IMG/VR virus record: IMGVR_UViG_3300033148_003007
Coordinates: 1-27,431 of that record
Source of the DNA: a virus
DNA length: 27,431 nucleotides
Reading direction: 5' to 3' (one strand)
In this document: positions 3,294-27,431 of the stretch, in pieces
Numbering within the stretch: the first letter of the stretch is position 1
Layout: every line of letters begins with the position of its first letter
Made by a program: the position numbers and the translations under genes
The notes under the pieces: generated by a model
Databases searched by the model: none
Told to the model about the DNA's origin: nothing
What the model saw: the letters and a program-made list of their open reading frames with translations, nothing else

Positions 3294-3302
3294 GGTGATA
3301 TT

Positions 3303-3665
3303 ATTTTAACAGATGACGGAGTACAGGAAATTGCAAGCATGATGGGAGGTTCTGCTAATATACCCGGTTATATAGGAATTGGAACTGGTAGTAGTACAGT
3401 TACTTCCAGTGATACTGCTTTATTGACAGAAACAGACAGAAATTTAATAACAAGCAGAGATACAAGTGTAGCTAAAGATGTGACTTATATAGTAGATTTC
3501 AGTGCAACTGAATTAAGTGGCACTACTATAACAGAATTTGGATTGTTTAACACTGTTACAGCAGGAAGTTTAATAACAAGAGACGTAATAGGAAGTTTAG
3601 CATTTGCCGGCGATATGGAAATGCAAATACAAAGTACTCTTAGATTTAGTAGAAGTGGTGTATAA
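3303..3665 (+). CDS. Tail fibre/collar-type structural protein, probable ATT start
   Basis: A 120-residue protein from ATT at 3303 (or 108 residues from ATG 3339). GAGGTGAT at 3293-3299 is an excellent Shine-Dalgarno sequence and places ATT 3303 exactly where ATG sits in neighbouring genes (five bases after GGTG). No ATG, GTG or TTG is in frame between the upstream stop and 3339. The extra residues, ILTDDGVQEIAS, look like the normal start of this family. The body has the pattern YIGIGTG, then DTALLTETDR, then ITEFGLFN and a final ITRD strand, common in phage tail-fibre or collar proteins. It overlaps the next start by one base (TAATG at 3663-3667). Confidence 0.65.
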   Translation: MLTDDGVQEIASMMGGSANIPGYIGIGTGSSTVTSSDTALLTETDRNLITSRDTSVAKDVTYIVDFSATELSGTTITEFGLFNTVTAGSLITRDVIGSLAFAGDMEMQIQSTLRFSRSGV

Positions 3666-8961: not shown

Positions 8962-10314
8962 ATGAAAAAAGTGTTAGTATTAATAATGGTTTTGTTAATT
9001 ATGATACCAAATGTTAATGCAGAGTGTGTAGATTATGAATTAGATATAGAAGGAGACTATCTGGTTTCAAATATAGTTTGGTATGTAGATAATTCCCATA
9101 CAGGATGGGGTTATACAGACGGATATTTAGTATATGATATAAATTACAGTTCTGGATTACAGGAAGTAAAAGTAAAATATTATGGTGGTGACGATAGTAA
9201 AACATGGGAAATAACAGAAGAAGGGATTTACCATGCTGCTATTTTTGTAATACCCGGAATAGAACATAGAGTAGAAATGTATTTAGAAGGTGAATTGGTT
9301 AATAGTGTGCCAATTCCACACCAATCTGTTAATTCATTAAATAAAGTCAGTATAGGTAATGCTGTTGATTCAACTTATTTAAATATACAAGTTTGTTCTG
9401 AGTTACCTGTTTATAATCAAACTGAAAAATGTATTCAGAATTGGAGTTGTACAAATTTTACAGAATGTACAAATGAAACACAAGAAAGGGTTTGTATAGA
9501 TTTAAACGAATGTAATAATAACACAGGAAAACCAAAAGAAATACAAAATTGTACTGTAGAAAATGAAACCGAAATATGTATTGTAAATTGGAATTGTTCA
9601 AACTGGACTGAATGTATAAATGAAACACAAACGAGAATATGTTCAGATTTAAATGAATGTAATAACGAAACATTGAAACCTTTTGAAATACAGAATTGTA
9701 CAAACGAAACAAATGAAATTATTAATAAAACTTGCATTATAAATTGGAGTTGTTCTAATTGGACTAACTGTATTAATTTAACACAAACAAGAATATGCGA
9801 AGATTTAAACAATTGTATCAACGAAACTGGAAAACCTATTGAATTTCAAAATTGTACAAATGAAACTATTAATGAAACCATACCCGAAATTTGCATATCT
9901 GATTGGAAATGTAATAATTGGGGTAGATGTATAAACAGAAAAAAAACAAGAGAATGTATAGATTTAAATTCTTGTGAAATTCAAACTAATATACCCAAAG
10001 TTTTAGAAAGTTGTGTTAGCAATTCAGGAGGTTCTGGTGGTTCTGGCGGAGGCGCTTATATACCCAAACCAATTATAAATAAAACTGAAAACATTACAGA
10101 AAAAATAATTGTAAACAATGTTATTAAAATAGAAGAACCAGAAAACGAAACCGAAATAATTTTGGAACAAAACGTAATTGAACCAGAAATAAAAGAACCT
10201 GAAACGATAAAACATGAAATAGTTAAACCAGAAATAAAAGAACCAGAAATAACTAAAACATGGTTAGACAAAATAAAAGAATTTTTAATTAAAATATGGA
10301 GATGGTTAATATAA
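8962..10314 (+). CDS. Secreted, sequon-dense Cys-rich repeat glycoprotein
   Basis: A 450-residue protein with a clear signal peptide (residues 1-20, ending NVNA before ECVDY). A beta-rich domain (21-150) is followed by four thrombospondin-type-1-like repeats (about 155-350), each with W-x-C-x-x-W/F-x-x-C, then Q/K-x-R-x-C, D-L-N-x-C and a final N-C or S-C. A Gly-Ser linker (GGSGGSGGG) leads to an acidic Glu-Pro-Lys-rich stalk and an amphipathic Trp-rich end (WLDKIKEFLIKIWRWLI). By my count 25 N-x-S/T sequons are present, most in the repeats. Similar Cys repeats occur in surface proteins of DPANN-type archaea. It is likely exported and heavily N-glycosylated. It could be a virion spike or a protein displayed on the infected cell. 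The downstream glycosyltransferase gene overlaps its end. Confidence 0.7.
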   Translation: MKKVLVLIMVLLIMIPNVNAECVDYELDIEGDYLVSNIVWYVDNSHTGWGYTDGYLVYDINYSSGLQEVKVKYYGGDDSKTWEITEEGIYHAAIFVIPGIEHRVEMYLEGELVNSVPIPHQSVNSLNKVSIGNAVDSTYLNIQVCSELPVYNQTEKCIQNWSCTNFTECTNETQERVCIDLNECNNNTGKPKEIQNCTVENETEICIVNWNCSNWTECINETQTRICSDLNECNNETLKPFEIQNCTNETNEIINKTCIINWSCSNWTNCINLTQTRICEDLNNCINETGKPIEFQNCTNETINETIPEICISDWKCNNWGRCINRKKTRECIDLNSCEIQTNIPKVLESCVSNSGGSGGSGGGAYIPKPIINKTENITEKIIVNNVIKIEEPENETEIILEQNVIEPEIKEPETIKHEIVKPEIKEPEITKTWLDKIKEFLIKIWRWLI

Positions 10315-11531
10315 AAATAGCAATACTTTCAGATTCGCCAACTTTGCCGACTGGGTACAGAAACCAAGCACTCCAGCTTGCACAATATTTAACAAAAAAA
10401 GGGCATGAAATACATTATATGGGTAACGCATACGCTGGTATGCCTTTAAACAATTTTGAACTATATGATGGAACTAAATGTAATTTTAAACTATACGGTG
10501 AAATGCAACATGGATACTTCAGGAATTCAATGTCTGAAATACTTAGAACAAATATGATAGATAGATTTATTATTTTGTTAGATACATTTATGTTGCATGA
10601 CTGGTTTCTTGGAATAGACACCGCACCAGCAAAAACGTTTTTTTGGTTCCCAACAGACGGTGGTGGAGGACTTCCTCTTGGTTGCGAAAATATATTAAAA
10701 AAAGTAAACGTTCCAGTTTCTATTTCAAGATTTGGACAGAAACAAGTAAAAGAATATCATAACTTAGACGCAGAACATATACCGCATGGAGTAAATACTG
10801 ATTTGTTTTATAAAATGCCAGATGAAGAAAGGAATAAATTAAGAGCAATGTATGGACTACAAGATAAATTTGTAATTGGAGTAGTAGCAAGAAACCAGCC
10901 AAGAAAACATTTGGATAGAACTCTAAAAGCTATGAGTTTAATTAAAGAAAAGATACCAAACGCAATTCTATTTCTTCACCTTGACCCAGATGACCCTGCT
11001 CAACCTCTTTGGCGAATGAGAAGTTTAATATCTAAATTTGGTCTTGAAAATAGAGTTGTGTTTACTGGAATGAAAGCGTTTAAAGGAATACCAGATAAAG
11101 ATATGAAGAACATTTATAATATAATGGATTGCTTTCTACTTACAACTTCTGGTGAAGGATTTGGAATACCAATTATAGAAGCAATGGCATGTGAAGTTCC
11201 TGTTGTAGCGACTTCTTATACAACAACATCTGAGTTAGTTGAATTAAATAAAGCAGGATTTGGTATTAAACTATCTGGAGTAGAAACATTGGATATGTTT
11301 GAATCAACCTCACAAGAATACGACTATAGATGCATGAACGGCACAATAACCGGCAGTTGGGAAGTAGAAAGAGCAATTTGCGATATAGAAGATGCAGCCA
11401 AATTAGTAATTAACTTATTTAACGACCCAAAACTAAGTAGATTAATGGGTAAGAACGGTAGGGATGCTGTCTTGAAAAAGTATGATTTTGAAAAAGTTGT
11501 CGGACCAAAATGGGAGAAATTATTGAGTTGA
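10296..11531 (+). CDS. GT4-family glycosyltransferase (GT-B fold)
   Basis: A 411-residue glycosyltransferase. The N-terminal Rossmann domain starts IKIAILSDSPTLPTGYRNQ, with a glycine-bearing turn typical of GT-B enzymes. IPHGVNTDLF (162-171) joins the two domains. The C-terminal domain has FVIGVVARNQPRKHLDR (192-208) and GEGFGIPIIEAMACEVPVVAT (286-306) with the E-x7-E pair Glu287 and Glu295 that binds the sugar nucleotide. Length is normal for the family. The start overlaps the previous gene by 19 bases; ATG 10296 and ATG 10302 are both possible and neither has a clear ribosome site. It probably transfers a nucleotide-activated sugar in the cytoplasm. Confidence 0.85.
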   Translation: MEMVNIKIAILSDSPTLPTGYRNQALQLAQYLTKKGHEIHYMGNAYAGMPLNNFELYDGTKCNFKLYGEMQHGYFRNSMSEILRTNMIDRFIILLDTFMLHDWFLGIDTAPAKTFFWFPTDGGGGLPLGCENILKKVNVPVSISRFGQKQVKEYHNLDAEHIPHGVNTDLFYKMPDEERNKLRAMYGLQDKFVIGVVARNQPRKHLDRTLKAMSLIKEKIPNAILFLHLDPDDPAQPLWRMRSLISKFGLENRVVFTGMKAFKGIPDKDMKNIYNIMDCFLLTTSGEGFGIPIIEAMACEVPVVATSYTTTSELVELNKAGFGIKLSGVETLDMFESTSQEYDYRCMNGTITGSWEVERAICDIEDAAKLVINLFNDPKLSRLMGKNGRDAVLKKYDFEKVVGPKWEKLLS

Positions 11532-11535
11532 TAAA

Positions 11536-11712
11536 ATGAAATGGAATTTACATGACAATGTACATATATCAGTTTGTGAATGTGGTGAACATCATTACCA
11601 TCTTTTAAAGATAGGCAATGCAGTCTATTTACAATGCGGTAAATGTTCTAAACTAACACCAATTATTTTAGATATGTACGAAAGAGAAAAATTAAAAGAG
11701 GGGAAAATATGA
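11536..11712 (+). CDS. Small zinc-ribbon protein
   Basis: A 58-residue protein with CECGEHH (14-20) and CGKCSK (34-39), a two-pair Cys zinc ribbon. The strand pattern between the pairs (HYHLLKIGNAVYLQ) is usual for this fold. The start lies four bases after the glycosyltransferase stop and its own stop overlaps the next start (ATGA). Zinc ribbons of this size bind nucleic acids or proteins. The specific role is unknown. Confidence 0.55.
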   Translation: MKWNLHDNVHISVCECGEHHYHLLKIGNAVYLQCGKCSKLTPIILDMYEREKLKEGKI

Positions 11713-11888
11713 TAATACGAAAAGTATGGCAAGCAAAAAGTAATGGAACAAAATATATTACAATCCCAAAGAATTGTAATATTAATGCTGGAGATTATGT
11801 AAAACTTATACGAATTATAGAACCAAATTGTGAATATGAAACTGAAACAATTGAATATGATAATTCAAAATTTGGTAATACAAATTAA
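11709..11888 (+). CDS. AbrB/SpoVT-like DNA-binding regulator
   Basis: A 59-residue protein. Residues 1-38 (RKVWQAKSNGTKYITIPKN, then INAGDYVKLIRI) match the swapped-hairpin AbrB/SpoVT/MazE fold: a first strand, the ITIPK turn and the GDYVKL strand. Proteins of this fold dimerise and bind DNA as transcription regulators or antitoxins. No toxin gene is beside it, so a regulator is more likely. It overlaps the zinc-ribbon gene by four bases. It is a candidate to bind the repeated motif in the non-coding regions, though nothing shows this directly. Confidence 0.65.
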   Translation: MIIRKVWQAKSNGTKYITIPKNCNINAGDYVKLIRIIEPNCEYETETIEYDNSKFGNTN

Positions 11889-11895
11889 TTGATAT

Positions 11896-11925
11896 AACAC
11901 TTTATCTTTTTTCGGATTAAGTGTT
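11896..11925 (+). other. Imperfect hairpin between genes
   Basis: AACACTT at 11896 pairs with AAGTGTT ending at 11925; a partial inner stem (ATC with GAT) surrounds a T-rich loop. It lies in the 56-base gap after the AbrB-like gene and before a strong GAGGAGAGG ribosome site. It might slow or end transcription, or be an operator. The evidence is weak. Confidence 0.3.
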
Positions 11926-11944
11926 TTAATGAGGAGAGGATTAA

Positions 11945-12091
11945 ATGAGTGATTATACACATTTTAAAGAAAGGATGAAAATAATAACAGAGATGAATAA
12001 AAAGGGATGGAGTGTTTGTAATGAAAAACATTATAGAGATAATTATATAGAAATAACATTTGGAAAATGTCTTGAGGTATATTTAAAATGA
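11945..12091 (+). CDS. Small unknown protein
   Basis: A 48-residue protein that I do not recognise. A helix (HFKERMKIITEMNKKGW) is followed by two probable strands (YIEITFG and LEVYLK). It has one of the strongest ribosome sites in the window (GAGGAGAGG at 11931-11939), so it is probably well expressed. Its stop overlaps the next start by four bases (ATGA). Confidence 0.5.
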   Translation: MSDYTHFKERMKIITEMNKKGWSVCNEKHYRDNYIEITFGKCLEVYLK

Positions 12092-12210
12092 GTAAAAAAT
12101 ATGAAAAATGTAAAAGATGTGGTTCTTATTTATTTCCATGGGAAAGACAAAATCCCATTTGTGAAGGATGTATAGAAGTAGAAGATTACAAAAAGGAGGG
12201 GTTATTATGA
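12088..12210 (+). CDS. Small zinc-ribbon protein
   Basis: A 40-residue protein with two Cys pairs, C8-x2-C11 (KCKRCGS) and C25-x2-C28 (ICEGC), a minimal zinc ribbon. It overlaps both neighbours by four bases, and its end carries the AAAGGAGGGG ribosome site of the following glycosyltransferase gene. The function is unknown. Confidence 0.5.
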   Translation: MSKKYEKCKRCGSYLFPWERQNPICEGCIEVEDYKKEGLL

Positions 12211-13487
12211 ACAAACTCAACGTGTGTATTATGGGACAAAATTGTGAGAAGTTCTTGCCTATGTGTTTAAACAGTGTAAAAGATGCAGATAATATTATTT
12301 ATTGTGACGGTGGTTCTACAGATAATACTTTAGACATTATAGATACTTATCATCATCTACATGTTAATGAAGGATACAAAGTACAACCGATTATTATTAA
12401 AAATAAATATAACCAAGAAGATAAAGGAATGAACGGAAAACAGAGAAACTTTTATTTATCATACCTAAAGAAACATCACATGGGAGAATTTTGTATTTGT
12501 ATTGACGCAGATGAGGTAGTTGAAGATATTTCTAAAATAAAAGAATTGATAAACAACCCTCCAGAAGGAATGAAAGATATTATCTCAGTTAAAATGCGAC
12601 ATTTTATAGGAAATTTAGGAACTGAAGATGCAACTGTAAAAGAACATTATGTACCTCATAGATTGTTTAAGATAAAAGAAGAACTTATATACCCAGAAAC
12701 AGAACATTGTGTATTAGTTAAAAAAGTAAATGGTAAATTGGTTTTACCAGAAATAAGTTATTTTAATGGAACTGTTATTTGGCATTTAGCTTATATAACA
12801 GGTATGTTTGATATAAGAAAAAAGTATTTAAATCATTTAAAAAAGTCAGAAATGCATTCAAAAGAGTTTCTTAATAATTGGTATTCTTCACATTTATTTG
12901 GAATTTATCCAAATAGTAGAATAAACGCAATGGAAATACCAGAAGTAATATTAAATGAGTTTTTAATAGAAAAGGATATGATTTATTACAGTACGCATAA
13001 TCAACTGGAAACAAAACATTTTATTATGAGCAAACAATGGATAGACTATTTTAAACCAAAGAAAGTACTTGAATTGGGTTGTGGACTTGGCATGTTTGGG
13101 TTTGCTTTAGATAGTTATGAAATTGATTATACTGGTATGGAAAAGTCACAATGGGCTATTGATAATACCAAATTTAAACTTAATTTAAACCAAGGAGATA
13201 TAACAAAGAAACAGGATTATAAAGATTTTGATTTAGTATTAGTATTAGACGTATTAGAACACATAAAAGAAACTGATTTGGATAAAACTCTTGAAAACAT
13301 AAAAGAATATGGAACTAAGTTTTTGTTCAGTATTCCTTATATAGATGACCCGAATATTGATTTAGATATAACACATGTAACAAAAAAATCAAAAGAATGG
13401 TGGGTAACTAAACTAAGTCAATTCTTTAAGATTAAAGATGTACCAAATACATTTTTATATAACAAACAATTATTAATAGGTGAGTAA
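12207..13487 (+). CDS. GT2 glycosyltransferase fused to SAM methyltransferase
   Basis: A 426-residue protein from ATG 12207, chosen over the upstream in-frame ATG 12168 because AAAGGAGGGG (12193-12201) precedes it. Residues 1-210 are a GT-A fold, family 2: a first strand NVCIMGQNC, DGGSTDNT (34-41) and the metal-binding D-A-D at 100-102. Residues 275-426 are a class I methyltransferase: VLELGCGLGMFG (287-298), a second acidic turn at YTGMEK and LDVLEHI (347-353). The fusion suggests a sugar is added and a sugar or acceptor methylated by one polypeptide. Methyl caps often stop chain growth in other glycans, so chain-length control is one inferred possibility. Confidence 0.8.
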   Translation: MNKLNVCIMGQNCEKFLPMCLNSVKDADNIIYCDGGSTDNTLDIIDTYHHLHVNEGYKVQPIIIKNKYNQEDKGMNGKQRNFYLSYLKKHHMGEFCICIDADEVVEDISKIKELINNPPEGMKDIISVKMRHFIGNLGTEDATVKEHYVPHRLFKIKEELIYPETEHCVLVKKVNGKLVLPEISYFNGTVIWHLAYITGMFDIRKKYLNHLKKSEMHSKEFLNNWYSSHLFGIYPNSRINAMEIPEVILNEFLIEKDMIYYSTHNQLETKHFIMSKQWIDYFKPKKVLELGCGLGMFGFALDSYEIDYTGMEKSQWAIDNTKFKLNLNQGDITKKQDYKDFDLVLVLDVLEHIKETDLDKTLENIKEYGTKFLFSIPYIDDPNIDLDITHVTKKSKEWWVTKLSQFFKIKDVPNTFLYNKQLLIGE

Positions 13488-13565
13488 ATGATAGAATGTA
13501 TATTTTGTGGATTTATAGGTGGGATTGTAGTGATTATAATGTATAGAATCGGGGTGTTGGAATGA
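13488..13565 (+). CDS. Possible 25-residue membrane peptide
   Basis: A short frame directly after the previous stop, with GGTGAG as ribosome site and a four-base overlap with the radical SAM gene. The peptide contains CIFCGFIGGIVVIIMYRI, a single possible membrane helix. It could be real, or simply a coupling leader that carries ribosomes to the next gene. Confidence 0.3.
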   Translation: MIECIFCGFIGGIVVIIMYRIGVLE

Positions 13566-14680
13566 AAAAAATGAGTGAAGAATGGTCAGAAAAATGGAAT
13601 CCATTTAATTCTGATAAATTAATTGCACATGTATATAGATGGAGTAAAATAGAAAAAGGAAAACCTATTCCTAATCCAATACTTGTTACAATAGACCCGA
13701 CTGATGTATGTAATTTAAAATGTATATGGTGTAATTCTGAATATATTCAAAAATATAACAGTTCAAGTATGACAAAAGAGACGTTATTAAAAATAGCTGA
13801 CTTTCTTTCTGAGTGGAAAGTAGAAGCTGTATGTGTAGCAGGCGGCGGAGAACCTTTACTTAATCAGAATACTTCCTTTTTTATAGATAGATGTATTGAA
13901 AACGGAATAAAGGTTGGTGTTGTAACAAATGGTTTTTTTATAGATAAACATCTTGATTCTTTATCTAAATGTGATTGGGTAGGAGTTAGTATAGATGCAG
14001 GAACACCAGAAACTTATACAAAGCTTAAAGGTGTTAATGTTTTTAATAAAGTAATAAATAATATGAAACTTTTAATCAATTATAAAAAAGAATCTAATTT
14101 AATGAAAGAAGGTCAAGGTTATGGTGTAACATATAAATTTCTTCTTCATCCATTTAATGTAGAAGATGTTTATAAAGCTACTAAAATAGCGAATGAAATA
14201 GGTTGTAAAAATATGCATATAAGACCATTTGGTGAGCCTTGGGATAAATTAGGTAAAATAGAAGATAAATTTACTTATTCTGATATACAAGAATTTAAAG
14301 AACAATTAACAAAAGCAAGAATTTTAGAAAATAAAAAATTTAGAGTGTTTGGTATTACACATAAATTTAATGGCGATTTTAGAAAGAAAAATGAGTTTAA
14401 AGAATGTCATGCCATATTTATGACAGGTGTTTTTATGCCGCCAAGTGGTACTGGTAATTTTGATTATGGGTTTTGTTGTGATAGACGAGGGGATAAAAAA
14501 CTTACATTATATAATTTAAAAGAACCTAATGAAATTAAAAAAATATGGGGCAGTAAAAAACATTGGGAAATATTTAATGAAATAAAGGTAAATAAATGTC
14601 CACGATGTACATATCAGCCACATAATATTATTTTTGAAAAAGTAATAAAAGAAAATAATACAACATATCAATTTATATAG
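13562..14680 (+). CDS. Radical SAM enzyme with extra C-terminal cysteines
   Basis: A 372-residue protein starting at ATG 13562, five bases after GGGGTG. The radical SAM cluster motif is Cys50-x3-Cys54-x2-Cys57 (CNLKCIWC). VAGGGEPLLN is the SAM-binding GGE motif, and VVTNGFFI and VGVSIDAG are later strands of the half-barrel. The C-terminus has more cysteines (FKECHAIF, DYGFCCDRR and KCPRCTY), which resemble a SPASM or twitch-type auxiliary iron-sulphur site. It needs reduced iron-sulphur clusters, so it fits an anaerobic host. Lying between two glycosyltransferase genes, it may change a sugar or a lipid or peptide acceptor. The substrate cannot be deduced. Confidence 0.82.
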   Translation: MKKMSEEWSEKWNPFNSDKLIAHVYRWSKIEKGKPIPNPILVTIDPTDVCNLKCIWCNSEYIQKYNSSSMTKETLLKIADFLSEWKVEAVCVAGGGEPLLNQNTSFFIDRCIENGIKVGVVTNGFFIDKHLDSLSKCDWVGVSIDAGTPETYTKLKGVNVFNKVINNMKLLINYKKESNLMKEGQGYGVTYKFLLHPFNVEDVYKATKIANEIGCKNMHIRPFGEPWDKLGKIEDKFTYSDIQEFKEQLTKARILENKKFRVFGITHKFNGDFRKKNEFKECHAIFMTGVFMPPSGTGNFDYGFCCDRRGDKKLTLYNLKEPNEIKKIWGSKKHWEIFNEIKVNKCPRCTYQPHNIIFEKVIKENNTTYQFI

Positions 14681-14690
14681 AGGTAAAATT

Positions 14691-15353
14691 ATGAACGAAA
14701 AAGTAGCTATAATAATACCAGTACGTAACTCAGGTGAGTTTTTACAGTTAACTATTGAAAGTATTATAAAAACATTTAATTATCAGTATAAAATACTTCT
14801 TATAGACAGTGAAAGTACTGATGGAACTACTGAATATTGTAAAAGAATGTCTGAATTGGATTATATAGAATATTTTCCTTTTCCAAAAGGTTCTGTAACT
14901 AAAGCAATAAATTACGGAATTAAACAAGCTGGTGATTTAGATGTTTTATTGACACAAGATGATGTTATTTTCCATAAATTTCTAAGAAGAGATTTGTTAT
15001 CTGAACTAAACCATGCTGCCAAAAAAGATAATTGTGGGATTGTAACTGTTTATAACGGTATTGGCGTATCTGGTGATACTTATGTAAAGGGTTTTAGATG
15101 GGTAGGTACTTGGTGTATGTATATTCCAAGAAAAACTATAAATAAAATAGGTCTATTTGATGAAAATTTCAGTCCCGGTGATGGTGACGATATAGATTAC
15201 AGTTATAATATTTATAAAAATTCATTGGATATTTATATAAATGATTTATTTGTAGAACATCATAGAAAGTTTGATATAAATGCACATGAGCATGAAAGTC
15301 AGGAAATTAAAAAGAGAAACTCAGAATATTTTAAAAGGAAGTGGAAAATATGA
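14691..15353 (+). CDS. GT2-family glycosyltransferase
   Basis: A 220-residue, single-domain GT-A enzyme. The first strand is VAIIIPVRNSG (5-15), followed by ILLIDSESTDGT (35-46) and the QDD metal-binding triad (89-91), with a late acidic region FSPGDGDDIDYSYN that includes the likely catalytic base. The length is short but complete for GT2. AGAGGTAAAATT precedes the ATG. Its stop overlaps the dehydrogenase start by four bases (ATGA), beginning a chain of coupled genes. Confidence 0.83.
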   Translation: MNEKVAIIIPVRNSGEFLQLTIESIIKTFNYQYKILLIDSESTDGTTEYCKRMSELDYIEYFPFPKGSVTKAINYGIKQAGDLDVLLTQDDVIFHKFLRRDLLSELNHAAKKDNCGIVTVYNGIGVSGDTYVKGFRWVGTWCMYIPRKTINKIGLFDENFSPGDGDDIDYSYNIYKNSLDIYINDLFVEHHRKFDINAHEHESQEIKKRNSEYFKRKWKI

Positions 15354-16522
15354 ATAAAATTAGCGTTTTTGGACTTGGGCGGCTTGGTAAACCATTAGCA
15401 GAATTTATGGCTACCAAGGGGTTTGAAGTAATTGGTGTAGATGTAGATAAGAATAAATTAGGTAGTGATTTAATTGAAACTACTAATGAAAGTGAGTATG
15501 CAGTTAACCACTCGGACGTGTCAATTATATTTGTAAACACACCTAATTTAAAAGACGGAGCATTTAATTTAGTTTACGTTAATCAAGTAGCAGATAGTAT
15601 AGGAGAAGCTCTTAAATATAAAGATAAATATCATTTAGTTGTGCTTAGAAGTACTGTTCTTCCGGGCGCTACTGAAGAAATAATAAAAAGAATAGAGAAA
15701 ATTTCAGGTAAAAAAGTTGATAAAGATTTTGGAATGATACATCACCCAGAGTTTTTAGCACTTGGAACTGAAATAGAAAATATAAGAAACCCGGAATATC
15801 TTTTAATTGGTGAACATGATAAAAAAGCAGGTGATATTTATAGACATATTTGTTATACAGTTATGGACAATGATGCACCTATAATTAGAACAAATCTAAG
15901 AAATGCTGAATTGGCTAAACTAATGGCTAATAATTATATTACAATGAAAATGAATTTTGCTAATATGATAGGTGAGATTTGCGATAAAACAGATGCAGAC
16001 CCAGATGTAATAAGTAATATACTCGGTCACGACAGTAGAATAGGTAGAAAGTTTTTAACTGCTGGTTTATCTTACGGTGGAACGTGTTTTCCAAGAGATA
16101 ATGAAGCGCTATCATTTTATTTAGATAAGTTGGGAATGGATATGAATTTTCCAGGAGTAATGACCGTAATGAACAATCACCAGATTGATAGAATGGTAAA
16201 TAAAATAATAGATAAATCAAATACAAATAAAATACTTATAATAGGCACTTCATTTAAACCAAACACGGATGTAGTAGTAGAAAGCGCTTCTATTAAAATA
16301 ATAAATAAATTAATTGAAAAAGGGTTTGTTATTACAGTACATGACCCGAAAGCTATTTCAAATACAAAAGAAGTTCTTGGAAATAAAGTAAATTATATTA
16401 AAAACGTACAAAAAGCAATTAACGAATCTGATTTTACAGTATTAGCAGTACCTTGGAATCAGTATATTAAATTAAAATATAATAAAGATAAACTATTAGA
16501 TTGTTGGAGGTGTGTTAAATGA
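15350..16522 (+). CDS. UDP-glucose/GDP-mannose 6-dehydrogenase family
   Basis: A 390-residue enzyme from ATG 15350; GTG 15341 also fits the frame but overlaps the ribosome site. The NAD-binding Rossmann motif is VFGLGRLGKPLAEFM (6-20). AELAKLMANNYITMK (186-200) holds the conserved Lys190 and Asn194. SYGGTCFPRD (241-250) carries the catalytic Cys246, and GTSFKPNTDV begins the C-terminal domain. All key residues are present, so it should be active. Members oxidise the C6 of a nucleotide sugar to a uronic acid using two NAD+. This implies an acidic sugar in the virus-directed glycan. Whether the substrate is a UDP- or GDP-sugar cannot be told. Confidence 0.88.
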   Translation: MNKISVFGLGRLGKPLAEFMATKGFEVIGVDVDKNKLGSDLIETTNESEYAVNHSDVSIIFVNTPNLKDGAFNLVYVNQVADSIGEALKYKDKYHLVVLRSTVLPGATEEIIKRIEKISGKKVDKDFGMIHHPEFLALGTEIENIRNPEYLLIGEHDKKAGDIYRHICYTVMDNDAPIIRTNLRNAELAKLMANNYITMKMNFANMIGEICDKTDADPDVISNILGHDSRIGRKFLTAGLSYGGTCFPRDNEALSFYLDKLGMDMNFPGVMTVMNNHQIDRMVNKIIDKSNTNKILIIGTSFKPNTDVVVESASIKIINKLIEKGFVITVHDPKAISNTKEVLGNKVNYIKNVQKAINESDFTVLAVPWNQYIKLKYNKDKLLDCWRCVK

Positions 16523-17745
16523 AAGAATTTGCATTTAAAATATATGATAAATTAACCAAAAATACAATCAAATGGCGTGAATATTTGACTGAATATAAAA
16601 ACGCAAGTCACAAAGAACTAAAAGAACTACAACGGGGTAGATTGAACGTATTACATTGGTCTGGTTTTAGGACAAATAGAAAAAATCTATGGTTATGGAA
16701 AGGATTTAATAATACTCCTCTAACAACAAAAGAAGACCTAAGAAATTTCAAGCCAATCCTAAAAGGAAACGAAACTAAACATTTTTCATCTGGTTCAACA
16801 GGAGAACCGTTAAAAACATACGGTCCAGATGAACTACAATCAATTAAATCAGCAGTATTTGAAAGAGCTTGGAAGTCAGTTGGCTGGAATGGAAAAGACA
16901 AAATACTTAGACTAACAGCAGGAGAACCACAATGGAAATTATTTGACTGGCTAAGAAATGTTAAACCAATGAATTACAGAAATATTGGTTTAAAACATTA
17001 TAATTGGGTCATAAATAACAAACCATTTTTGATACATGGTGGTTCAGGCGCTATTAGAGAAATTACAACAGGAATAATTAATCTTGGTATAGAAGATTGT
17101 TTAAAAGATATAACTCTTTATCTTATGAGTGAAGATACAAAAGAACATACAAAAGAACTAAAAAAGTATTATAAAGCAGTTTACTCTGGTTACGGATTAG
17201 CAGAACTTTGTACAGTAGCTTCACAATGTAAATACGGAAATTATCATGTAAATATGGATACTTGTATAACTGAGGTAATTGACGGAGAGATAGTTGTAAC
17301 TGATTTGTTCAATAACGTAACTCCTGTAATTAGATATAAAACTAAAGATTATGGTAAATTAAAAAAGAGCAACTGTAAATGTGGTAGGAAAAGTGATATA
17401 CTTTACGACATAGAAGGTAGAAGTATAGATTATTATGATGGCGATTTAACACTTAAACCTCTTGGGTGGTGGATATTAAGCCCTATTAGTAATGACTACG
17501 GACATTTAATAAACCAATGGAAAGTAAAGGTAAATTTGAAAAAGAATCAATTTATTTTATATGTTGTTTGGTCAGATAAAATATTGACATTTGAAACAGA
17601 AACAGGGTCTTATCCTATAACCAATATTGATTTAATATCATATAGAGAATGGATAAAAGAAGAATCAGGACTTGACTTAGTAATTAAAACACAAAAGAGT
17701 ATGAGCAACAAGGGTAGAATGAAATTACTTAAAGTGGTTAAATGA
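16519..17745 (+). CDS. CapK/PaaK-like adenylate-forming enzyme
   Basis: A 408-residue protein with the AMP-binding signature SSGSTGEPLKTY (90-101), a YSGYGLAELC motif, and VIRYKTKDYG with a following CKCGR, the order expected in the PaaK/CapK branch of adenylate-forming enzymes. PaaK makes phenylacetyl-CoA; CapK-like relatives sit in capsule and exopolysaccharide gene clusters and activate unknown acids. Four-base overlaps with both neighbours tie it to the dehydrogenase and the HAD gene. It may activate an acid for attachment to a sugar. The substrate is not known. Confidence 0.75.
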   Translation: MKEFAFKIYDKLTKNTIKWREYLTEYKNASHKELKELQRGRLNVLHWSGFRTNRKNLWLWKGFNNTPLTTKEDLRNFKPILKGNETKHFSSGSTGEPLKTYGPDELQSIKSAVFERAWKSVGWNGKDKILRLTAGEPQWKLFDWLRNVKPMNYRNIGLKHYNWVINNKPFLIHGGSGAIREITTGIINLGIEDCLKDITLYLMSEDTKEHTKELKKYYKAVYSGYGLAELCTVASQCKYGNYHVNMDTCITEVIDGEIVVTDLFNNVTPVIRYKTKDYGKLKKSNCKCGRKSDILYDIEGRSIDYYDGDLTLKPLGWWILSPISNDYGHLINQWKVKVNLKKNQFILYVVWSDKILTFETETGSYPITNIDLISYREWIKEESGLDLVIKTQKSMSNKGRMKLLKVVK

Positions 17746-18014
17746 AAATATATGCAATTGATTTGGATGGAACGCTTGTAATAAAAGGTAAACCAGTAAA
17801 AAAAGTCATTGATTCTGTTAACAGATTATATGAAAAAAAGGATACTATGGTTATAATTCATACTGCGAGAAATGAAACTATTAGAGAAAGAACAATTGAA
17901 TATCTTAAAATTCTTAAAGTTAATTATCATTTATTGATTATGAATAAACTCAGAGCAGATTATTATATAGACGATAGAAATATAAGTATAAAAGAATTTG
18001 GTGAAATGAAATGA
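17742..18014 (+). CDS. Short HAD-superfamily phosphatase
   Basis: A 90-residue minimal HAD protein with all motifs: DLDGT (7-11, nucleophile Asp7 and Asp9), HTAR (40-43), the Lys in MNKLRADYYIDDR (Lys69) and acidic Asp77-Asp78. There is no cap domain, as in small phosphatases of capsule loci that act on sugar phosphates or larger substrates. It overlaps its neighbours by four bases on both sides. A phosphate-removing step in the same pathway is likely. Confidence 0.78.
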   Translation: MKIYAIDLDGTLVIKGKPVKKVIDSVNRLYEKKDTMVIIHTARNETIRERTIEYLKILKVNYHLLIMNKLRADYYIDDRNISIKEFGEMK

Positions 18015-19072
18015 AATTATTTATAGCTGGTCCAGTAAATACATCAGAAAGTTTAAAGAAAATAATTCCTTATAATGAAATGGGACATAGAGAACCAGAG
18101 TTTGAGAATTTGTATAAAGGAGTTAAAACCAAACTTTATAAAGTATTTAAAATAAATAAAAAAGAATTTGACTTTGCAATTATAGGCGGTTCTGGTACTT
18201 CTGCAATAGAAAGTATGATTTCATCTATAGTAAATAAGAAAATATTAGTCATTTCAAACGGTGCGTTTGGTGAAAGGGCTTATGAGATATGTAAAATATA
18301 CGGTTTGCAAAGAGTTTATTTACAATATTCATGGGGTGATTATCCAAATGAATTAGAAATAGAGAAGATTCTACAAAATGACCCGGAAATTGGTTTTGTT
18401 TATATGGTACACATGGAAACCAGCACAGGTATGTTGAACCCAATAAAAGAAGTAGGAAATTTGTGCAAGAAGTACAACAAGACATATCTTATTGATTCTG
18501 TCTGCGCTATAGGTTGCGAGAAATTAGATATGAACGAGTTTAATATAGATTTCTGCGCATTTAGTTCTAATAAAGGTATTGGTGGAGTTCCTGTAGTTGG
18601 AATGGTATGTTGTAGAAAAAATAAGTTAAATAACCAAAAAAGGAATATGTACTTAAATTTAAATTCTTATTTGGATTATAGTAAAAAGAATCAAACCCCA
18701 TTTACTCCTGCTATACCGATGTTTTATTTTTTAAATGAAGTTTTAGTTGATTTACTTAAAGAAGGTGTAAATAATAGATTGAAAAGGTATAAAAATAATT
18801 GTGATTTATTGAAAAAGGAATTAACTAAATTAGATTTGGAATTTTATTTGAAAGATTATATGGCTAATATAATGGTAAATGTAATTATACCAAATGGATT
18901 AACATTTAAATTAATCCATGATGAATTAAAAAAAAGGGGATTTATTATTTATAATGGTAAAGATGAATTGGAGGGTAAGATTATGCATATAGCAACTATG
19001 GGAGATTTAACTGAAAAAGATATAAAAGAATTTGTAAAGAATTTAAAAGAAATAATAACCATAGTCCATTAA
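18011..19072 (+). CDS. Class V aminotransferase, 2-aminoethylphosphonate transaminase-like
   Basis: A 353-residue PLP enzyme. FIAGPVNTSESLK (4-16) and GHREPEF (25-31) are typical of the PhnW/alanine-glyoxylate aminotransferase group. GGSGTSAIES (59-68) binds the cofactor phosphate, IDSVCAIG holds Asp162, and SSNKGIGGVP (185-194) carries the PLP lysine, Lys188. Within class V, the GHREPEF start and the SSNKG-x-x-G-V-P site most resemble 2-aminoethylphosphonate:pyruvate transaminase, but serine- or alanine-glyoxylate enzymes are close relatives. No PEP mutase or phosphonopyruvate decarboxylase is in the window, so phosphonate chemistry would need them elsewhere. It overlaps the HAD gene by four bases. 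Confidence 0.75.
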   Translation: MKLFIAGPVNTSESLKKIIPYNEMGHREPEFENLYKGVKTKLYKVFKINKKEFDFAIIGGSGTSAIESMISSIVNKKILVISNGAFGERAYEICKIYGLQRVYLQYSWGDYPNELEIEKILQNDPEIGFVYMVHMETSTGMLNPIKEVGNLCKKYNKTYLIDSVCAIGCEKLDMNEFNIDFCAFSSNKGIGGVPVVGMVCCRKNKLNNQKRNMYLNLNSYLDYSKKNQTPFTPAIPMFYFLNEVLVDLLKEGVNNRLKRYKNNCDLLKKELTKLDLEFYLKDYMANIMVNVIIPNGLTFKLIHDELKKRGFIIYNGKDELEGKIMHIATMGDLTEKDIKEFVKNLKEIITIVH

Positions 19073-19077
19073 TGGAC
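19064..19077. repeat. Perfect 14-bp palindrome over a stop codon
   Basis: GTCCATTAATGGAC is a perfect inverted repeat with the TAA stop of the aminotransferase gene (19070-19072) inside it. As RNA it would need a short loop, so it may be a DNA-binding site or a weak hairpin. Its arms repeat the GTCCA/TGGAC core of the hairpin at 5583-5608. Confidence 0.4.
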
Positions 19078-19098
19078 AGGGGTCAAAAAGGTGAATAA

Positions 19099-19974
19099 AT
19101 GAAAGAATTAGCAGTGTTGATAAACACAAGAGATAGACCAACTGAATTGGCGCTTTTACTACAAAGTTTAAGAACGCAAACTTATAAGAATTTTGATATA
19201 TTTATATTAGATGACCAATCTGGAACAAATTTAAGTAACTATCATTTTTTTAATTGCATGGTTACAAGATTGAAATTAGAAGGAATTAAAGTATTTTTAA
19301 AAAGAACAGAATTCCCATTGGGAGTTAGCAGAGCCAGACAGACTATAGCAGATTGGGCTTTAGAAAAAGATTATAAATATACTTTACGTGTGGATGATGA
19401 TGTTTTACTTGAAACAGATTATATAGAAAGATTGTTTAAAGTAATTAATTCGGGATTTGATATAGCAAGCGGAGTTACAGTACCAATGACTGGTCCAGTT
19501 TTTAGGCGAGAACCAAAGTTTTTAAATGGAATGGTTAATAGAGTAATTTTAGATAAAGACGGTAATCATATTATGAACGGTGACGATTGTGGTTGGGCTT
19601 ATACAGAATCAGTTATTTTACCTGCTTGTCATTTTAGAAGTTGCGCATTAATAAAAAGAAAAGTACATGAAAAAGTAAATTATTATCCAACTAAGTTTAG
19701 TAAACATGGTTTTAGAGAAGAGCAAATATTTAGTTATAAAGCTCAGATGTTTGGTTTTAAAATAGGTGTAGACACAGGTGCAGTTAATTATCATCAATTA
19801 ACACCAAGCGGTGGAGAAAGATTTGCAGATTCACAAAATTTGACTGTATTTAACCAAAAGGTTTTTGAAGAGTTTACAAGAGAAAATAAAGTTGAGCTAA
19901 ACAAGATATTTAACAAAGACAATATTCCAAGTAAACTATCTTTACTAAAAGAAACTAATTTAATAATGAGATGA
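19099..19974 (+). CDS. GT2-family glycosyltransferase
   Basis: A 291-residue GT-A enzyme: ELAVLINTRDRP (3-14), FILDDQSGT (35-43) and RVDDDV (97-102) containing the metal-binding acidic triad. GVSRARQTIADWA between them is the usual helix lining the nucleotide site. A Gly- and His-containing late region, HGFREEQIFSYKAQ, holds the likely catalytic Glu. AAAAGGTGAATAA precedes the ATG. It follows the coupled dehydrogenase-CapK-HAD-aminotransferase set after 26 bases and probably uses its product or a related sugar. Confidence 0.83.
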   Translation: MKELAVLINTRDRPTELALLLQSLRTQTYKNFDIFILDDQSGTNLSNYHFFNCMVTRLKLEGIKVFLKRTEFPLGVSRARQTIADWALEKDYKYTLRVDDDVLLETDYIERLFKVINSGFDIASGVTVPMTGPVFRREPKFLNGMVNRVILDKDGNHIMNGDDCGWAYTESVILPACHFRSCALIKRKVHEKVNYYPTKFSKHGFREEQIFSYKAQMFGFKIGVDTGAVNYHQLTPSGGERFADSQNLTVFNQKVFEEFTRENKVELNKIFNKDNIPSKLSLLKETNLIMR

Positions 19975-19979
19975 TATAA

Positions 19980-20183
19980 ATGAGAATATTCAAAGAAAAT
20001 AAAGGAACTATATTATGTAGATTATTTGGACATAGTTGGAGTTTTCCTATACACATGTTAGGACATTCAAAATCTATTATGTCATCAGATTATAGATGTC
20101 GTAGATGTGGAATAAATAAAGAAGATTCATTAGAAGGAAAAGAATGGATAAAAACATGGAATGAATTTAATGAAAAAATATGA
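19980..20183 (+). CDS. Small Cys/His zinc-binding protein, DUF1660-like
   Basis: A 67-residue protein with CRLFGHSW near the N-terminus and YRCRRCGI later. The C-x-x-x-G-H plus C-x-x-C layout resembles DUF1660-type phage proteins, which bind zinc and have no known function. It lies between two glycosyltransferase genes with short gaps. The ribosome site (GATGAT) is weak. Confidence 0.55.
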   Translation: MRIFKENKGTILCRLFGHSWSFPIHMLGHSKSIMSSDYRCRRCGINKEDSLEGKEWIKTWNEFNEKI

Positions 20184-20195
20184 GGTAGTGATTAA

Positions 20196-21311
20196 ATGAT
20201 AAACATAATAGGAAGTTTTTTTGGCAGTTCTGGATACGATTCGCATGTAAGAAATTTGTTAAAAGCATTGGATAAAATTACAGAAGTAAGATTAACTACA
20301 AACGGAGTACCAAATTGGGAAAGATTAGTAACAGATAGAGAATTGGAATTGATTAAAAGAAAACCAGTTAAAGACGAGATAAATTTAATAATTTCAAACC
20401 CTTTACATTGGAGACTGAACGCTACAGCTGAAAGAAATTGGGTTTATTTAGTTAGTGAAGGAGATAAAATACCAGTTTGTTTTATAGAAGAATGCATGAA
20501 CCCAGATATAGAAAAAATATTTTGCCCTTCTACACATGTTATAGATGCAGTTATGGAAACAATGTATATATTAACTTCAGATGAACAAAGCGAATTATAC
20601 GATAAATTGGAGAAGATTCCTCATGGAGTAGATTTAGAGCTATTCTATCCAAAAGAAAAACAAGATAAGTGTATATTCTTAGCTAATAAAGGATTTAGGA
20701 ACTTACAGGACAGAGGAGGTATACAATATCTTATAAGGGCATACTTTGAAGAGTTTACCGATAAGGATAATGTGGAGTTAACATTAAAAATAAACCCCGC
20801 TTATGGAATACCAGATTTGAATAAACTAATTGAAGAATTAGTTCCTAAGAAAGAATATAAAACAGTTCCTGATAGATTACCGAAACTAAATATAAATACA
20901 AACAATATCCCTTATGATAAGATGGTTGATTTATATAATTCAGCTACAGTATTCGTAAGTCCAACAAGAGCAGAAGCATTTAATTTACCTTGTTTAGAAG
21001 CATTAGCATGTGGTCTTCCTGTTATTACAACTAATTACGGAGGGCAGACTGATTATGTGGTTAATAATATAAATGGATTGTTTATAGATTATAAACTTGA
21101 AGAAATAGAACATGAAGTTTTATATGAAGGAATAAGTTGGGCTACTCCTGATATTGGAAGTTTAAGAAATGAATTAAGATATGCTTATGAAAACAAATCA
21201 CTTATGAAAAGGATGGGTAAAGAAGGGATTAAAACTGCTAAAGAGTTTACATGGAGTTCTACAGCTAAAAAAATAAGCGAAATTATAAATACTTCTGAAG
21301 ACAATATATAA
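20196..21311 (+). CDS. GT4-family glycosyltransferase (GT-B fold)
   Basis: A 371-residue glycosyltransferase. It starts MINIIGSFFGSSGYDSHVRN with the glycine loop of the first Rossmann domain. IPHGVDLELFYP (141-152) links the domains. SPTRAEAFNLPCLEALACGLPVITT (255-279) contains the E-x7-E pair, Glu260 and Glu268. It is distinct in sequence from the first GT4 (10296-11531), so it probably transfers a different sugar or uses another acceptor. GAGGTAGTGATTAA precedes the ATG. It closes the glycan island. Confidence 0.85.
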   Translation: MINIIGSFFGSSGYDSHVRNLLKALDKITEVRLTTNGVPNWERLVTDRELELIKRKPVKDEINLIISNPLHWRLNATAERNWVYLVSEGDKIPVCFIEECMNPDIEKIFCPSTHVIDAVMETMYILTSDEQSELYDKLEKIPHGVDLELFYPKEKQDKCIFLANKGFRNLQDRGGIQYLIRAYFEEFTDKDNVELTLKINPAYGIPDLNKLIEELVPKKEYKTVPDRLPKLNINTNNIPYDKMVDLYNSATVFVSPTRAEAFNLPCLEALACGLPVITTNYGGQTDYVVNNINGLFIDYKLEEIEHEVLYEGISWATPDIGSLRNELRYAYENKSLMKRMGKEGIKTAKEFTWSSTAKKISEIINTSEDNI

Positions 21312-21337
21312 TTAATGACTAAATTAGAGGTAATAAA

Positions 21338-21496
21338 ATGGGACGAAAGCAGATAACAACTAAAGAAAGAATTATGAACAGGAGTATTGGATTCCACATT
21401 AGACAAATTGAATTTTTCAATAAATACCCAGAATTCAAGCCCGATAAATTTTGTAGAATGGCAATAGATGAACAGATAAAATTAATAGGTGGTTAG
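21338..21496 (+). CDS. Possible ribbon-helix-helix regulator
   Basis: A 52-residue basic protein preceded by AGAGGTAATAAA. A short strand-like segment (IGFHIRQIEFF) is followed by FKPDKFCRMAIDEQIK, which resembles the second helix of ribbon-helix-helix proteins. The motif is not clear enough to be certain. Its leader is the same twelve bases as before the terminase gene (23452-23463), which makes it a useful ATG reference for that gene's ATT start. The next ATG abuts its stop. Confidence 0.5.
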   Translation: MGRKQITTKERIMNRSIGFHIRQIEFFNKYPEFKPDKFCRMAIDEQIKLIGG

Positions 21497-22704: not shown

Positions 22705-23118
22705 ATGAAGTCAAGTAATTCAGATAACCCCCACCGTTTTGATAATATGTCAAAAACGGAAGCGGATAATCTAAGAGCAAAGGCAAAGTCTGTTCATAAG
22801 ACTGAAGCATTTAGTAAAAAAATGAAAGAAGTTGCTAATAAAAGATATTTCAGGGAGAAGAACCCTGATATATCTGCGCTAATGGAACTCTATAACAGTG
22901 GTGACGAAAAGGAAGTAATGAATAAATACGTTACAGATGTTGAAGTGTTTAAAGAGTTATTTGAAAACGCTGATACTGTAGAAAGCAGACGAAGAATTTG
23001 GAGTGACTATATGTCTTTTAACTTAAAGATATTTGAATTAATGTTCGGTACTAAGAGTAAAATAGACCAGAAAGTACAGTCAGTTAATTATAACGTAGTC
23101 ATACATGAACCAAAGTAA
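22705..23118 (+). CDS. Candidate small terminase subunit
   Basis: A 137-residue, mostly helical protein directly upstream of the large terminase gene. The basic N-terminal half (RFDNMSKTEADNLRAKAK to VANKRYFREK) could bind DNA; the middle (NPDISALMELYNSGDEKEV) and C-terminal helices could oligomerise, ending in a strand VNYNVVIHEPK. The call rests mainly on gene order and size, since small terminases are very divergent. AAGTGATTAG precedes the ATG. A 345-base non-coding region separates it from the large subunit, which is unusual for a terminase pair. Confidence 0.42.
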   Translation: MKSSNSDNPHRFDNMSKTEADNLRAKAKSVHKTEAFSKKMKEVANKRYFREKNPDISALMELYNSGDEKEVMNKYVTDVEVFKELFENADTVESRRRIWSDYMSFNLKIFELMFGTKSKIDQKVQSVNYNVVIHEPK

Positions 23119-23150
23119 CTGAGAGAAAGTAAGAGGGATGGATAGGTAGT

Positions 23151-23163
23151 AGTATATAATATG
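23151..23163 (+). promoter_or_regulatory. TATA-like element of region 2
   Basis: AGTATATAATATG resembles an archaeal TATA box. Transcription about 25 bases downstream (near 23182) would begin inside the shared 19-bp element, so a protein bound there could block it. The leader to the terminase would be long, about 280 bases, so a second promoter nearer the gene (for example GGTTTTAAAAT at 23360-23370) is also possible. Confidence 0.35.
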
Positions 23164-23175
23164 TAATACCATTTG

Positions 23176-23406
23176 AGGTAAAACCCTTTTACTGTTGTTC
23201 TTTAATTTCTCAAAAAAACTGCCTAAAAAGTACCAGAAACGCACTTTTTCAATTACCCAAAAACGGTAACAGTAAAAAATAAGTTCAATACTTAGCAACA
23301 TTGAGGGCGTTTACCCTACCCTCCAGAGATAACATTCATTTCACCCCTTTACTGGTAACGGTTTTAAAATAGTGTGAAAACAAAGAAAGTTGTGTTACTG
23401 ATGCCG
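23176..23406. repeat. Cluster of 11-bp motif CGNTANCAGTA (region 2)
   Basis: Forward copy at 23264-23274; reverse copies at 23350-23360 and, with one mismatch, 23396-23406; a degenerate reverse copy at 23190-23200. The copy at 23264 lies in CAAAAACGGTAACAGTAA (23258-23275), which matches 5710-5727 at 17 of 18 positions. AGGTAAAACC at 23176 plus the adjoining TTACTG matches the reverse complement of 5630-5648 at 17 of 19. Confidence 0.6.
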
Positions 23407-23463
23407 AAAAGCAACGAAACCAAAGAAATTAATCTTGTCAGTGTCTAAAAAAGAGGTAATAAA

Positions 23464-24816
23464 ATTAGAGAAGTAAATATAAATTGGATTCCAACCAAGA
23501 AACAAATGGAAGCATTTAAAATACTGAAAGATAAAAAGACGAATGAACTTCTATTTGGCGGTGGTGCAGGCGGGGCTAAATCTCATCTTGGTTGTGCATG
23601 GTTGATTTTGAACTGTTTAGAGTATCAGGGGTCTAGATGGTTAATGGGTAGAGCAGTGCTTAAGTCGCTTAAAGAATCAACTTTATTAACCTTTTTTGAT
23701 ATTTGTAAATCATGGGGCTTAATTAAAGGTGAAGATTATACTTATAACCAAATAGAAGGTATAATCAATTTTACTAAAACTAATTCAACTATTTATCTAA
23801 AAGATTTATTTGCTTATCCAAGCGACCCCGAATTTGACTCTCTTGGTTCTACTGAATTCACTGGAGTATTTATAGACGAAGGCGCACAGATTACTCTTAA
23901 AGCTTTTAATATATGTAAGTCAAGAATTAGGTACAAGTTAGATGAATTCGGGATTATACCTAAAATATTAATTTGCTCTAACCCATGTAAGAACTTTCTT
24001 TATTCAGATTTCTATAAACCTTGGAAGTCTGGAGAGTTATTAACTTATAGAAAGTTCTTACCTGCATTGGCAAAAGACAATCCATTTGTTTCAAAGTTCT
24101 ATATAGAAAACTTAAAGAAATTAGATATAATAAGTAAGGAAAGACTACTTTACGGTAACTGGGAGTACGATGACGACCCAAATAGATTATTTGAATACGA
24201 TAAAATAGTGGATATGTTTACTAACAACGTTAAAAGAGGAACTAAATATTGTATAGTAGACCAATCAGGTAGAGGAAGAGATAAAGCTGTTATAACTCTT
24301 TGGGACGGACTTTTTGTTTATAAAATATATATTTACTCAGTTGGAATAAGCAGTATGGATTTAGATAAAATACTTCAGACTGAGGGGATAAATAGAAGTA
24401 ATTGTTTAGCAGATGAAGATGGTGTAGGTTTTGGACTTGTTAAAGACCTACCGGGAATAAAAGGATTCGTTAACAATGCAACTGCTATTAAAGGATTAAA
24501 AAAAGCGTTGGACCAGACCAGAGTAGACATAAATTACGCTAATTTAAAAGCGCAGTGTTGGGACACGTTAGCAAATTACGTTAACGTTGGACAAATTGGC
24601 GTCTATAGAGATATTAAAATAGAACAGAAAAAATTAATTATAGAAGACTTAGAACACATAAAACAAACTAACGTAGGTAAAGACCAACCGTTTAGAGTAA
24701 GTACAAAAGAAAACTTAAAAGAAGAAATGGGTAGGTCAACAGATATAGGAGACACTTTTATGATGAGAATGTTCTTTGAGCTTAAACCCAGTTATGTACC
24801 GTATATTTCTATATAG
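23464..24816 (+). CDS. terL: Terminase large subunit (TerL), probable ATT start
   Basis: About 450 residues. The first in-frame ATG (23506) would cut off NINWIPTKKQ, the typical terminase N-terminus. The only start that fits AAGAGGTAAT is ATT 23464; the same twelve-base leader AGAGGTAATAAA precedes an ATG at 21338. In ATT numbering: Walker A GGGAGGAKS (32-40), Walker B VFIDE (135-139), an ATPase coupling motif near ILICSNP (about 169-175), and an RNase H-like nuclease with Asp266 (IVDQSGRGRDK), Asp317/Asp319 (ADEDG) and a late GDTFM. The enzyme packages DNA into the head through the portal and cuts the concatemer. All catalytic parts are present. Confidence 0.9.
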   Translation: MREVNINWIPTKKQMEAFKILKDKKTNELLFGGGAGGAKSHLGCAWLILNCLEYQGSRWLMGRAVLKSLKESTLLTFFDICKSWGLIKGEDYTYNQIEGIINFTKTNSTIYLKDLFAYPSDPEFDSLGSTEFTGVFIDEGAQITLKAFNICKSRIRYKLDEFGIIPKILICSNPCKNFLYSDFYKPWKSGELLTYRKFLPALAKDNPFVSKFYIENLKKLDIISKERLLYGNWEYDDDPNRLFEYDKIVDMFTNNVKRGTKYCIVDQSGRGRDKAVITLWDGLFVYKIYIYSVGISSMDLDKILQTEGINRSNCLADEDGVGFGLVKDLPGIKGFVNNATAIKGLKKALDQTRVDINYANLKAQCWDTLANYVNVGQIGVYRDIKIEQKKLIIEDLEHIKQTNVGKDQPFRVSTKENLKEEMGRSTDIGDTFMMRMFFELKPSYVPYISI

Positions 24817-24868: not shown

Positions 24869-25282
24869 TTGAGTATAAAGGTGATTATTATAGATGCACA
24901 ATATGAGAAAGATATTCCTTATGTTTATAGGGAATTACAAGATACTGTACAATTTTTCAATCTCACGACCGGCTCGCAAACGAAGGACATTCCACTTTAC
25001 GGAACTGTAAAAGGGATTTCCGAGATTTCTGTATCAGTTGGAAGCGTGGGAAATGAGTGGATTAGAAATGCTTCCTTTTCAGTTTTCAGAACGAACACAG
25101 TAGCCTCAATTGACGAAAGCTATCCAAGTGACAATTTACTTGGTAAAGTTAGTATGAACAATGCAAACGTTTTGTTTTTTGATAAAATAAGATTCAGTGA
25201 ACAGGATTTAAAAATTGTAATAAACCACAATGCCGGGACAAATAAATTAACTTCAGTTAACGTAAAATATTATTCTAAGTGA
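24869..25282 (+). CDS. Virion-type protein between terminase and portal
   Basis: A 137-residue beta-rich protein (IKVIIIDAQYEKDIPYVYRE at the start), not recognised. It has no in-frame ATG near its beginning. TTG 24869 would give a leaderless message from the TATA box at 24839, while GTG 24881 lies inside AAAGGTGATTA, the only Shine-Dalgarno-like sequence. ATT 24887 and ATA 24890 are further options. The C-terminal half has regular strands (DKIRFSEQDLKIVINHN, LTSVNVKYYSK), as in head-tail or decoration proteins. It sits between terminase and portal, which suggests a head component or head-tail connector. Confidence 0.6.
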   Translation: MSIKVIIIDAQYEKDIPYVYRELQDTVQFFNLTTGSQTKDIPLYGTVKGISEISVSVGSVGNEWIRNASFSVFRTNTVASIDESYPSDNLLGKVSMNNANVLFFDKIRFSEQDLKIVINHNAGTNKLTSVNVKYYSK

Positions 25283-27029: not shown

Positions 27030-27110
27030 ATGTATTGTAAAAAATGTAAAAGAAATCATGCTAACAAATTAGTAGATTGTGATATTATTGGACTTGAAAC
27101 TAGACCATAA
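27030..27110 (+). CDS. Very small zinc-binding peptide
   Basis: A 26-residue peptide, MYCKKCKRNHANKLVDCD at its start. C3, C6, H10 and C17 form a possible single zinc site. GGAAGAATGATA lies before the ATG. It is close to the limit of what can be called a gene, but the metal-ligand pattern and gene-like position support it. Confidence 0.4.
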   Translation: MYCKKCKRNHANKLVDCDIIGLETRP

Positions 27111-27113
27111 AAG

Positions 27114-27431
27114 GTGATTAAATTTAGCGGAATAGAAGGAACAAGTGGAAGTCTGACAGGAACTACTCACAGAGCAGAAGTAACTGAAGATAATAAAATA
27201 GCTGTTTATGATAGTGTTATAAGCGGAGTATCTGTCCTTGAAGAAGGTTTAGTAGTAATGACTCATAGACATTGGAGAACTACAAGATGTTTATCTTATT
27301 CAGCTGGTTCAACATTTTATGAAATACCTCAAAATGGAAGTGCATCTATTTTATTTGATGTAGGAAGTGTAAATGGACATTTTAGTATCAGTACAGAAGC
27401 AGACGGCGATACTAAAACTGTATTTATGGAG
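27114..27431 (+). CDS. Probable virion protein, 3' end outside window
   Basis: The frame is open to the last base, giving at least 106 residues (VIKFSGIEGTSGSLTGTTHR at the start). It is rich in Gly, Ser, Thr and short strands (KIAVYDSVISGVSVLEEGLVVM, ASILFDVGSVNGHFSIST) and resembles a virion protein. There is no ATG near the beginning: GTG 27114 lies inside AAAGGTGATTA, the same setting as at 24881, and ATT 27117 or a codon further on are alternatives. Its place after the portal gene suits a head or decoration protein. Confidence 0.58.
   Translation, partial: MIKFSGIEGTSGSLTGTTHRAEVTEDNKIAVYDSVISGVSVLEEGLVVMTHRHWRTTRCLSYSAGSTFYEIPQNGSASILFDVGSVNGHFSISTEADGDTKTVFME

Follow-up and report, generated by a model that had tools for sequence, protein, structure and literature searches.

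The gene for the terminase large subunit (TerL) in the window, the 27,431 nt stretch of an IMG/VR virus record, most probably begins with the codon ATT at position 23464, as the original prediction had proposed. This reading, to which we give a probability of roughly three in four, draws on homologous N-termini, the ribosome-binding site and the absence of a usable alternative. The ATT of TerL does not appear to be the sole rare start in the window: judged from sequence, such starts recur in two to four of 29 ORFs. Because one or more further late genes behave likewise, we regard them as a recurring feature here.

Table 1. Coordinates of TerL, its start region and the other genes with a candidate rare start (SD, Shine-Dalgarno sequence).
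Feature	Position	Strand	Details
TerL	23464..24816	+	450 aa; proposed start codon ATT 23464-23466
Upstream in-frame stop TAA of TerL	23446..23448	+	sequence read directly
SD AGAGGT of TerL	23452..23457	+	6 nt from ATT; leader AGAGGTAATAAA (12 nt) shared with the gene at 21338
First in-frame ATG of TerL, rejected as start	23506..23508	+	no SD; follows the codon of invariant Q14 (23503-23505)
Comparison leader AGAGGTAATAAA-ATG	21326..21340	+	belongs to the 52-aa gene 21338-21496
Probable terminase small subunit	22705..23118	+	assigned from position alone, family searches giving nothing significant; no clear gene in the next ~330 nt
Tail-fibre-like gene, second candidate ATT start	3303..3665	+	ATT 3303 or ATT 3300; SD GAGGTGAT 3292-3299; first ATG 3339
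Gene between TerL and portal	24890..25282	+	probable ATA start 24890; SD AAAGGTGATT 24877-24886; canonical alternative TTG 24869 without SD
Gene continuing past the window end	27123..27431	+	TTT 27123 behind SD AAAGGTGATT 27110-27119; canonical alternative GTG 27114

The open frame of TerL spans 23449-24816. After the upstream stop the letters run AAA AGA GGT AAT AAA ATT (23464) AGA GAA GTA AAT ATA AAT TGG ATT CCA ACC AAG AAA CAA ATG (23506), and direct reading confirms the original statement that this frame holds no ATG, GTG or TTG between the stop and the ATG at 23506. The product of this frame is identified as a terminase large subunit by its family profiles (phrog_2 of PHROG, E = 6.5e-25; phrog_979, E = 7.3e-19), its P-loop (GGGAGGAKS), the conserved upstream Q14 seen in the alignment and its fold, the best fold match of the model being Sf6 gp2 (E = 5.6e-20). 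The predicted structure has a mean pLDDT of 84.8, with residues 11-30 confidently folded as part of the confident core.

A scan of IMG/VR yielded 80 related loci. Among relatives whose locus is collinear the closest is L003 (same gene order, 67% identity), in which TerL starts ATG ACA GAA ATA AAC ATA GAT TGG AAA CCA TCA AAG AAA CAA ATG. The first ATG occupies the exact column of the window's ATT, the codons downstream are near-identical, and the similarity between the two sequences begins at the start codon, with none upstream of it. Other relatives carry TTG (L002 and L004) or GTG (L222) one codon past the ATT column, or ATG at nearly the same place (L011, L013 and L017). Q14, the Q of KKQ, is invariant across 19 aligned TerLs; residue 15 corresponds to the ATG at 23506. 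The residues NINWIPTKKQ, taken in the original prediction for the conserved terminase N-terminus, are borne out as such by this alignment, which had been suggested as a check, and no intact relative starts at the residue coded at 23506.

Of 113 distinct TerL N-termini surveyed, 91 offer ATG and 19 only GTG or TTG. With L070 set aside, its frame being broken or truncated, only the window and L028 (IMGVR_UViG_3300040801_001992, 2191-3486) have no canonical start ahead of the conserved Q; L028 has ATA where L107, L108 and L110 have ATG. The rare start of TerL is not kept in relatives, which carry ATG, GTG or TTG, and an exact-pattern search for another copy of this virus found none. The TerL gene of L005 (3978-5050) is split, behind the glycines of the P-loop, by a long insertion in frame that starts CGVGHTPVHTLSG and resembles an intein.

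In most genes of the window GGT lies 6 nt from the start, as part of an SD of the GGTGA or GAGGT type. For ATT 23464 the SD score is 13 with a spacing of 6, which is typical of this genome; for ATG 23506 the score is 5. In gene interiors such an SD occurs by chance at 0.9% of in-frame codons, and at 0 of 215 internal ATT codons. Among the 29 window ORFs of at least 80 codons, 20 begin canonically behind an SD, and in four the SD is aimed at ATT, ATT, ATA and TTT. TerL shows two marks of an SD-assisted AUN start: its conserved N-terminus is compatible with no canonical start, and a normally spaced SD precedes the AUN codon. The leader itself was said to match that of the gene at 21338, and AGAGGTAATAAA does stand at both sites. 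The sequence AGAGGTAATAAAAT is found twice in the window (21326 and 23452) against 0.12 expected, and none of 100 shuffles gave two copies even with one mismatch permitted; chance does not account for the repeat. Upstream of it, the stretch between the probable small subunit and TerL (23119-23451) contains the inverted repeats TTTTACTGTT/AACAGTAAAA and AAAAACGGTAACAGTAAA/TTTACTGGTAACGGTTTT and might serve in packaging or regulation; a search of this 330-nt leader for structured RNA gave no Rfam match and a fold z-score of -0.42.

We compared the frames of 17 sequences all-against-all, flagging genes without a canonical start at a conserved N-terminus. This comparison flagged a second gene of the window, the tail-fibre-like ORF from 3294 (3294-3665), which passes both tests that TerL passes. 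Its ATT, at 3300 or 3303, stands directly behind the stop codon TGA of the preceding tail gene and has an SD score of 20, the strongest among the four rare-start ORFs. The collection scan returned no homologue of this ORF, and the L003 contig supplied a relative; in L193 the homologue has an ATG start that lies before the residue coded at window position 3339. The ATA at 24890 and the TTT at 27123 are weaker, probable cases. All canonical start candidates of the gene at 24869-25282 lack an SD, a strong SD is aimed at the ATA, and no homologues of this ORF were found. In the gene at 27111, the TTT stands in a column occupied by TTG in four relatives and by ATG in L003; GTG 27114 sits inside the SD and could serve as the start instead. 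Elsewhere, a small gene of L010 (1042-1150) has ATC behind GGAGGATTTAAA at the position taken by ATG in the window and in L201, and comparison with its paralogue and L199 is suggestive of an ATA start, with the SD GGTGAG, for the gene at 8707 of L193.

These further cases bear on the possibility that the ATT is a sequencing or assembly error, or belongs to a minority or defective variant, the real codon being ATG (or GTG or TTG). The source is a single metagenomic contig, one base change would suffice, the TerL starts of relatives are canonical, and AUU starts are very rare (PMC5622118), which raises the prior weight of error. However, errors would have had to hit this one contig two to four times, always at start codons, far beyond a plausible base error rate. 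Because two cases are well supported and two probable, the conserved frames of the window are otherwise intact, and ATA or ATC occurs in parallel at homologous starts in independent contigs, we consider error unlikely.

Ribosomes might alternatively enter the TerL frame from a mini-ORF beginning at ATG 23401 (MPKSNETKEINLVSV), by readthrough of the TAA at 23446, or the mini-ORF might act as a leader with reinitiation at the ATT. It lies in the same frame, with its end 15 nt short of the ATT, and the rare starts at 3303 and 27123 lie 9-12 nt past the stop of the upstream gene, as coupled reinitiation would have it. Yet the mini-ORF has no SD before it and no counterpart in L003, and TAA, TGA and TAG all serve as gene stops in the window. 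Its similarity to the longer TerL N-terminus of L083 is at shuffle level (23% of shuffles score equally), leaving entry by readthrough unsupported. We hold either version to be improbable. A start at ATG 23506, the first canonical one in frame, with the upstream residues unmade, is very unlikely, because it would cost the ATPase domain its K13 and its invariant Q14, within the confident core of the predicted structure, and would do so at a codon without an SD that no intact relative uses.

With translation from the AUU at 23464, the helix between AGAGGU and the 3' end of 16S rRNA would set this codon in the P site at the distance normal for the genome, and initiator Met-tRNA would pair with it at two of three positions, so that the protein would begin Met-Arg-Glu-Val-Asn-Ile-Asn-Trp. 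The ancestral start was probably canonical, as the ATG, GTG or TTG of relatives suggests, with the third base later changed to T; SD pairing likely makes up for the two-base codon match, as in bacterial AUU and AUA starts. Since at least one further late gene would have changed likewise, a weak start behind a good SD seems to be tolerated or repeatedly used in this virus.

A lower terminase level through the weak start is plausible by analogy with Staphylococcus aureus, where extended SDs accompany AUU and AUA starts that are in use and yield ~10-30% of the output of AUG (PMC13009471). The idea of gene-specific regulation is weakened by the rare starts on other late genes and the canonical starts in relatives; as the latter are canonical, a conserved regulatory role of the TerL start is not supported. 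Coupled reinitiation may help, since three rare starts lie 6-15 nt past an in-frame stop, two of them following the stop of an upstream gene. As a tentative wider account, possible rather than likely, the virus and sporadically its relatives may use AUU, AUA, AUC and even UUU behind strong SDs on several late genes (TerL and its downstream neighbour, a gene past the portal and a tail gene), either because the host, probably a DPANN archaeon, discriminates starts less strictly or because coupled reinitiation makes the third base matter little.

A DPANN archaeon is the likely host on sequence comparison. The TerL of L083, on a contig of a Nanoarchaeota MAG, is 64% identical to that of the window, and the MAG genome holds an archaeal 16S ending GGATCACCTCCT. 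Of 237 genomes of the phylum Nanoarchaeota, 98 contain a match to the Cys-Trp-rich protein at 8962-10314, against none of four bacterial genomes, a small control. GGTGA-type SDs also fit archaea. In six sampled DPANN genomes, taken as possible hosts, SD sites were rare, far below the virus, and none was convincingly aimed at an AUN start; with so little SD use and no comparable starts, the host assignment stays tentative. These six genomes gave no support for rare starts as a trait of DPANN archaea in general, though genes without an SD cannot be judged in this way. The virus genome also carries, at 10296-21311, a long block of genes that read as glycosyltransferase-like, radical-SAM-like, UDP-sugar-dehydrogenase-like and aminotransferase-like.

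A gene finder limited to ATG, GTG and TTG would strip TerL, a main marker gene of tailed viruses, of its conserved Q, and the gene at 3303 of its N-terminus. Should AUN codons open several genes per genome, start-codon discrimination by the host becomes testable, in DPANN archaea provided that the host is assigned correctly. Archaeal aIF1 promotes discrimination against non-canonical starts (PMC6237735). Published reconstructions count one switch of a start from AUG to AUU in 61,358 (PMC5622118), and the frequency of rare starts here would therefore lie far outside the usual range; that figure is probably a lower bound, owing to annotation bias against AUU.

The terminase fold is shared with Sf6 gp2 (PDB 4idh) and with the TerL of L083, which, unlike that of the window, has an ATG start and a longer N-terminus. 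For the start itself, the nearest parallels are bacterial. Escherichia coli infC starts with ATT (PMC5472188) and pcnB has an AUU start (work cited in PMC13009471). Both resemble TerL in the codon, and both starts are inefficient, but these genes are chromosomal, whereas the rare starts of the window are on late genes of a virus; infC is moreover autoregulated by IF3, a factor that archaea are not known to possess. Streptomyces sigR, an IF3-repressed regulator, differs in its codon, GTC, a rare start misannotated as a canonical codon in all available genomes (PMC5472188). In S. aureus, ccpN (AUA), cvfC1 (AUU) and infC (AUA) have, like the window, an AUN start helped by a strong SD (PMC13009471); their rare starts are conserved across species, whereas those of the window are not kept in relatives. 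Since bacteria use SD-assisted AUU and AUA initiation in infC, pcnB, ccpN and cvfC1, this kind of start is already known; the new elements are the gene concerned, its setting in a virus of a probable DPANN archaeon and the repeated occurrence in a single genome.
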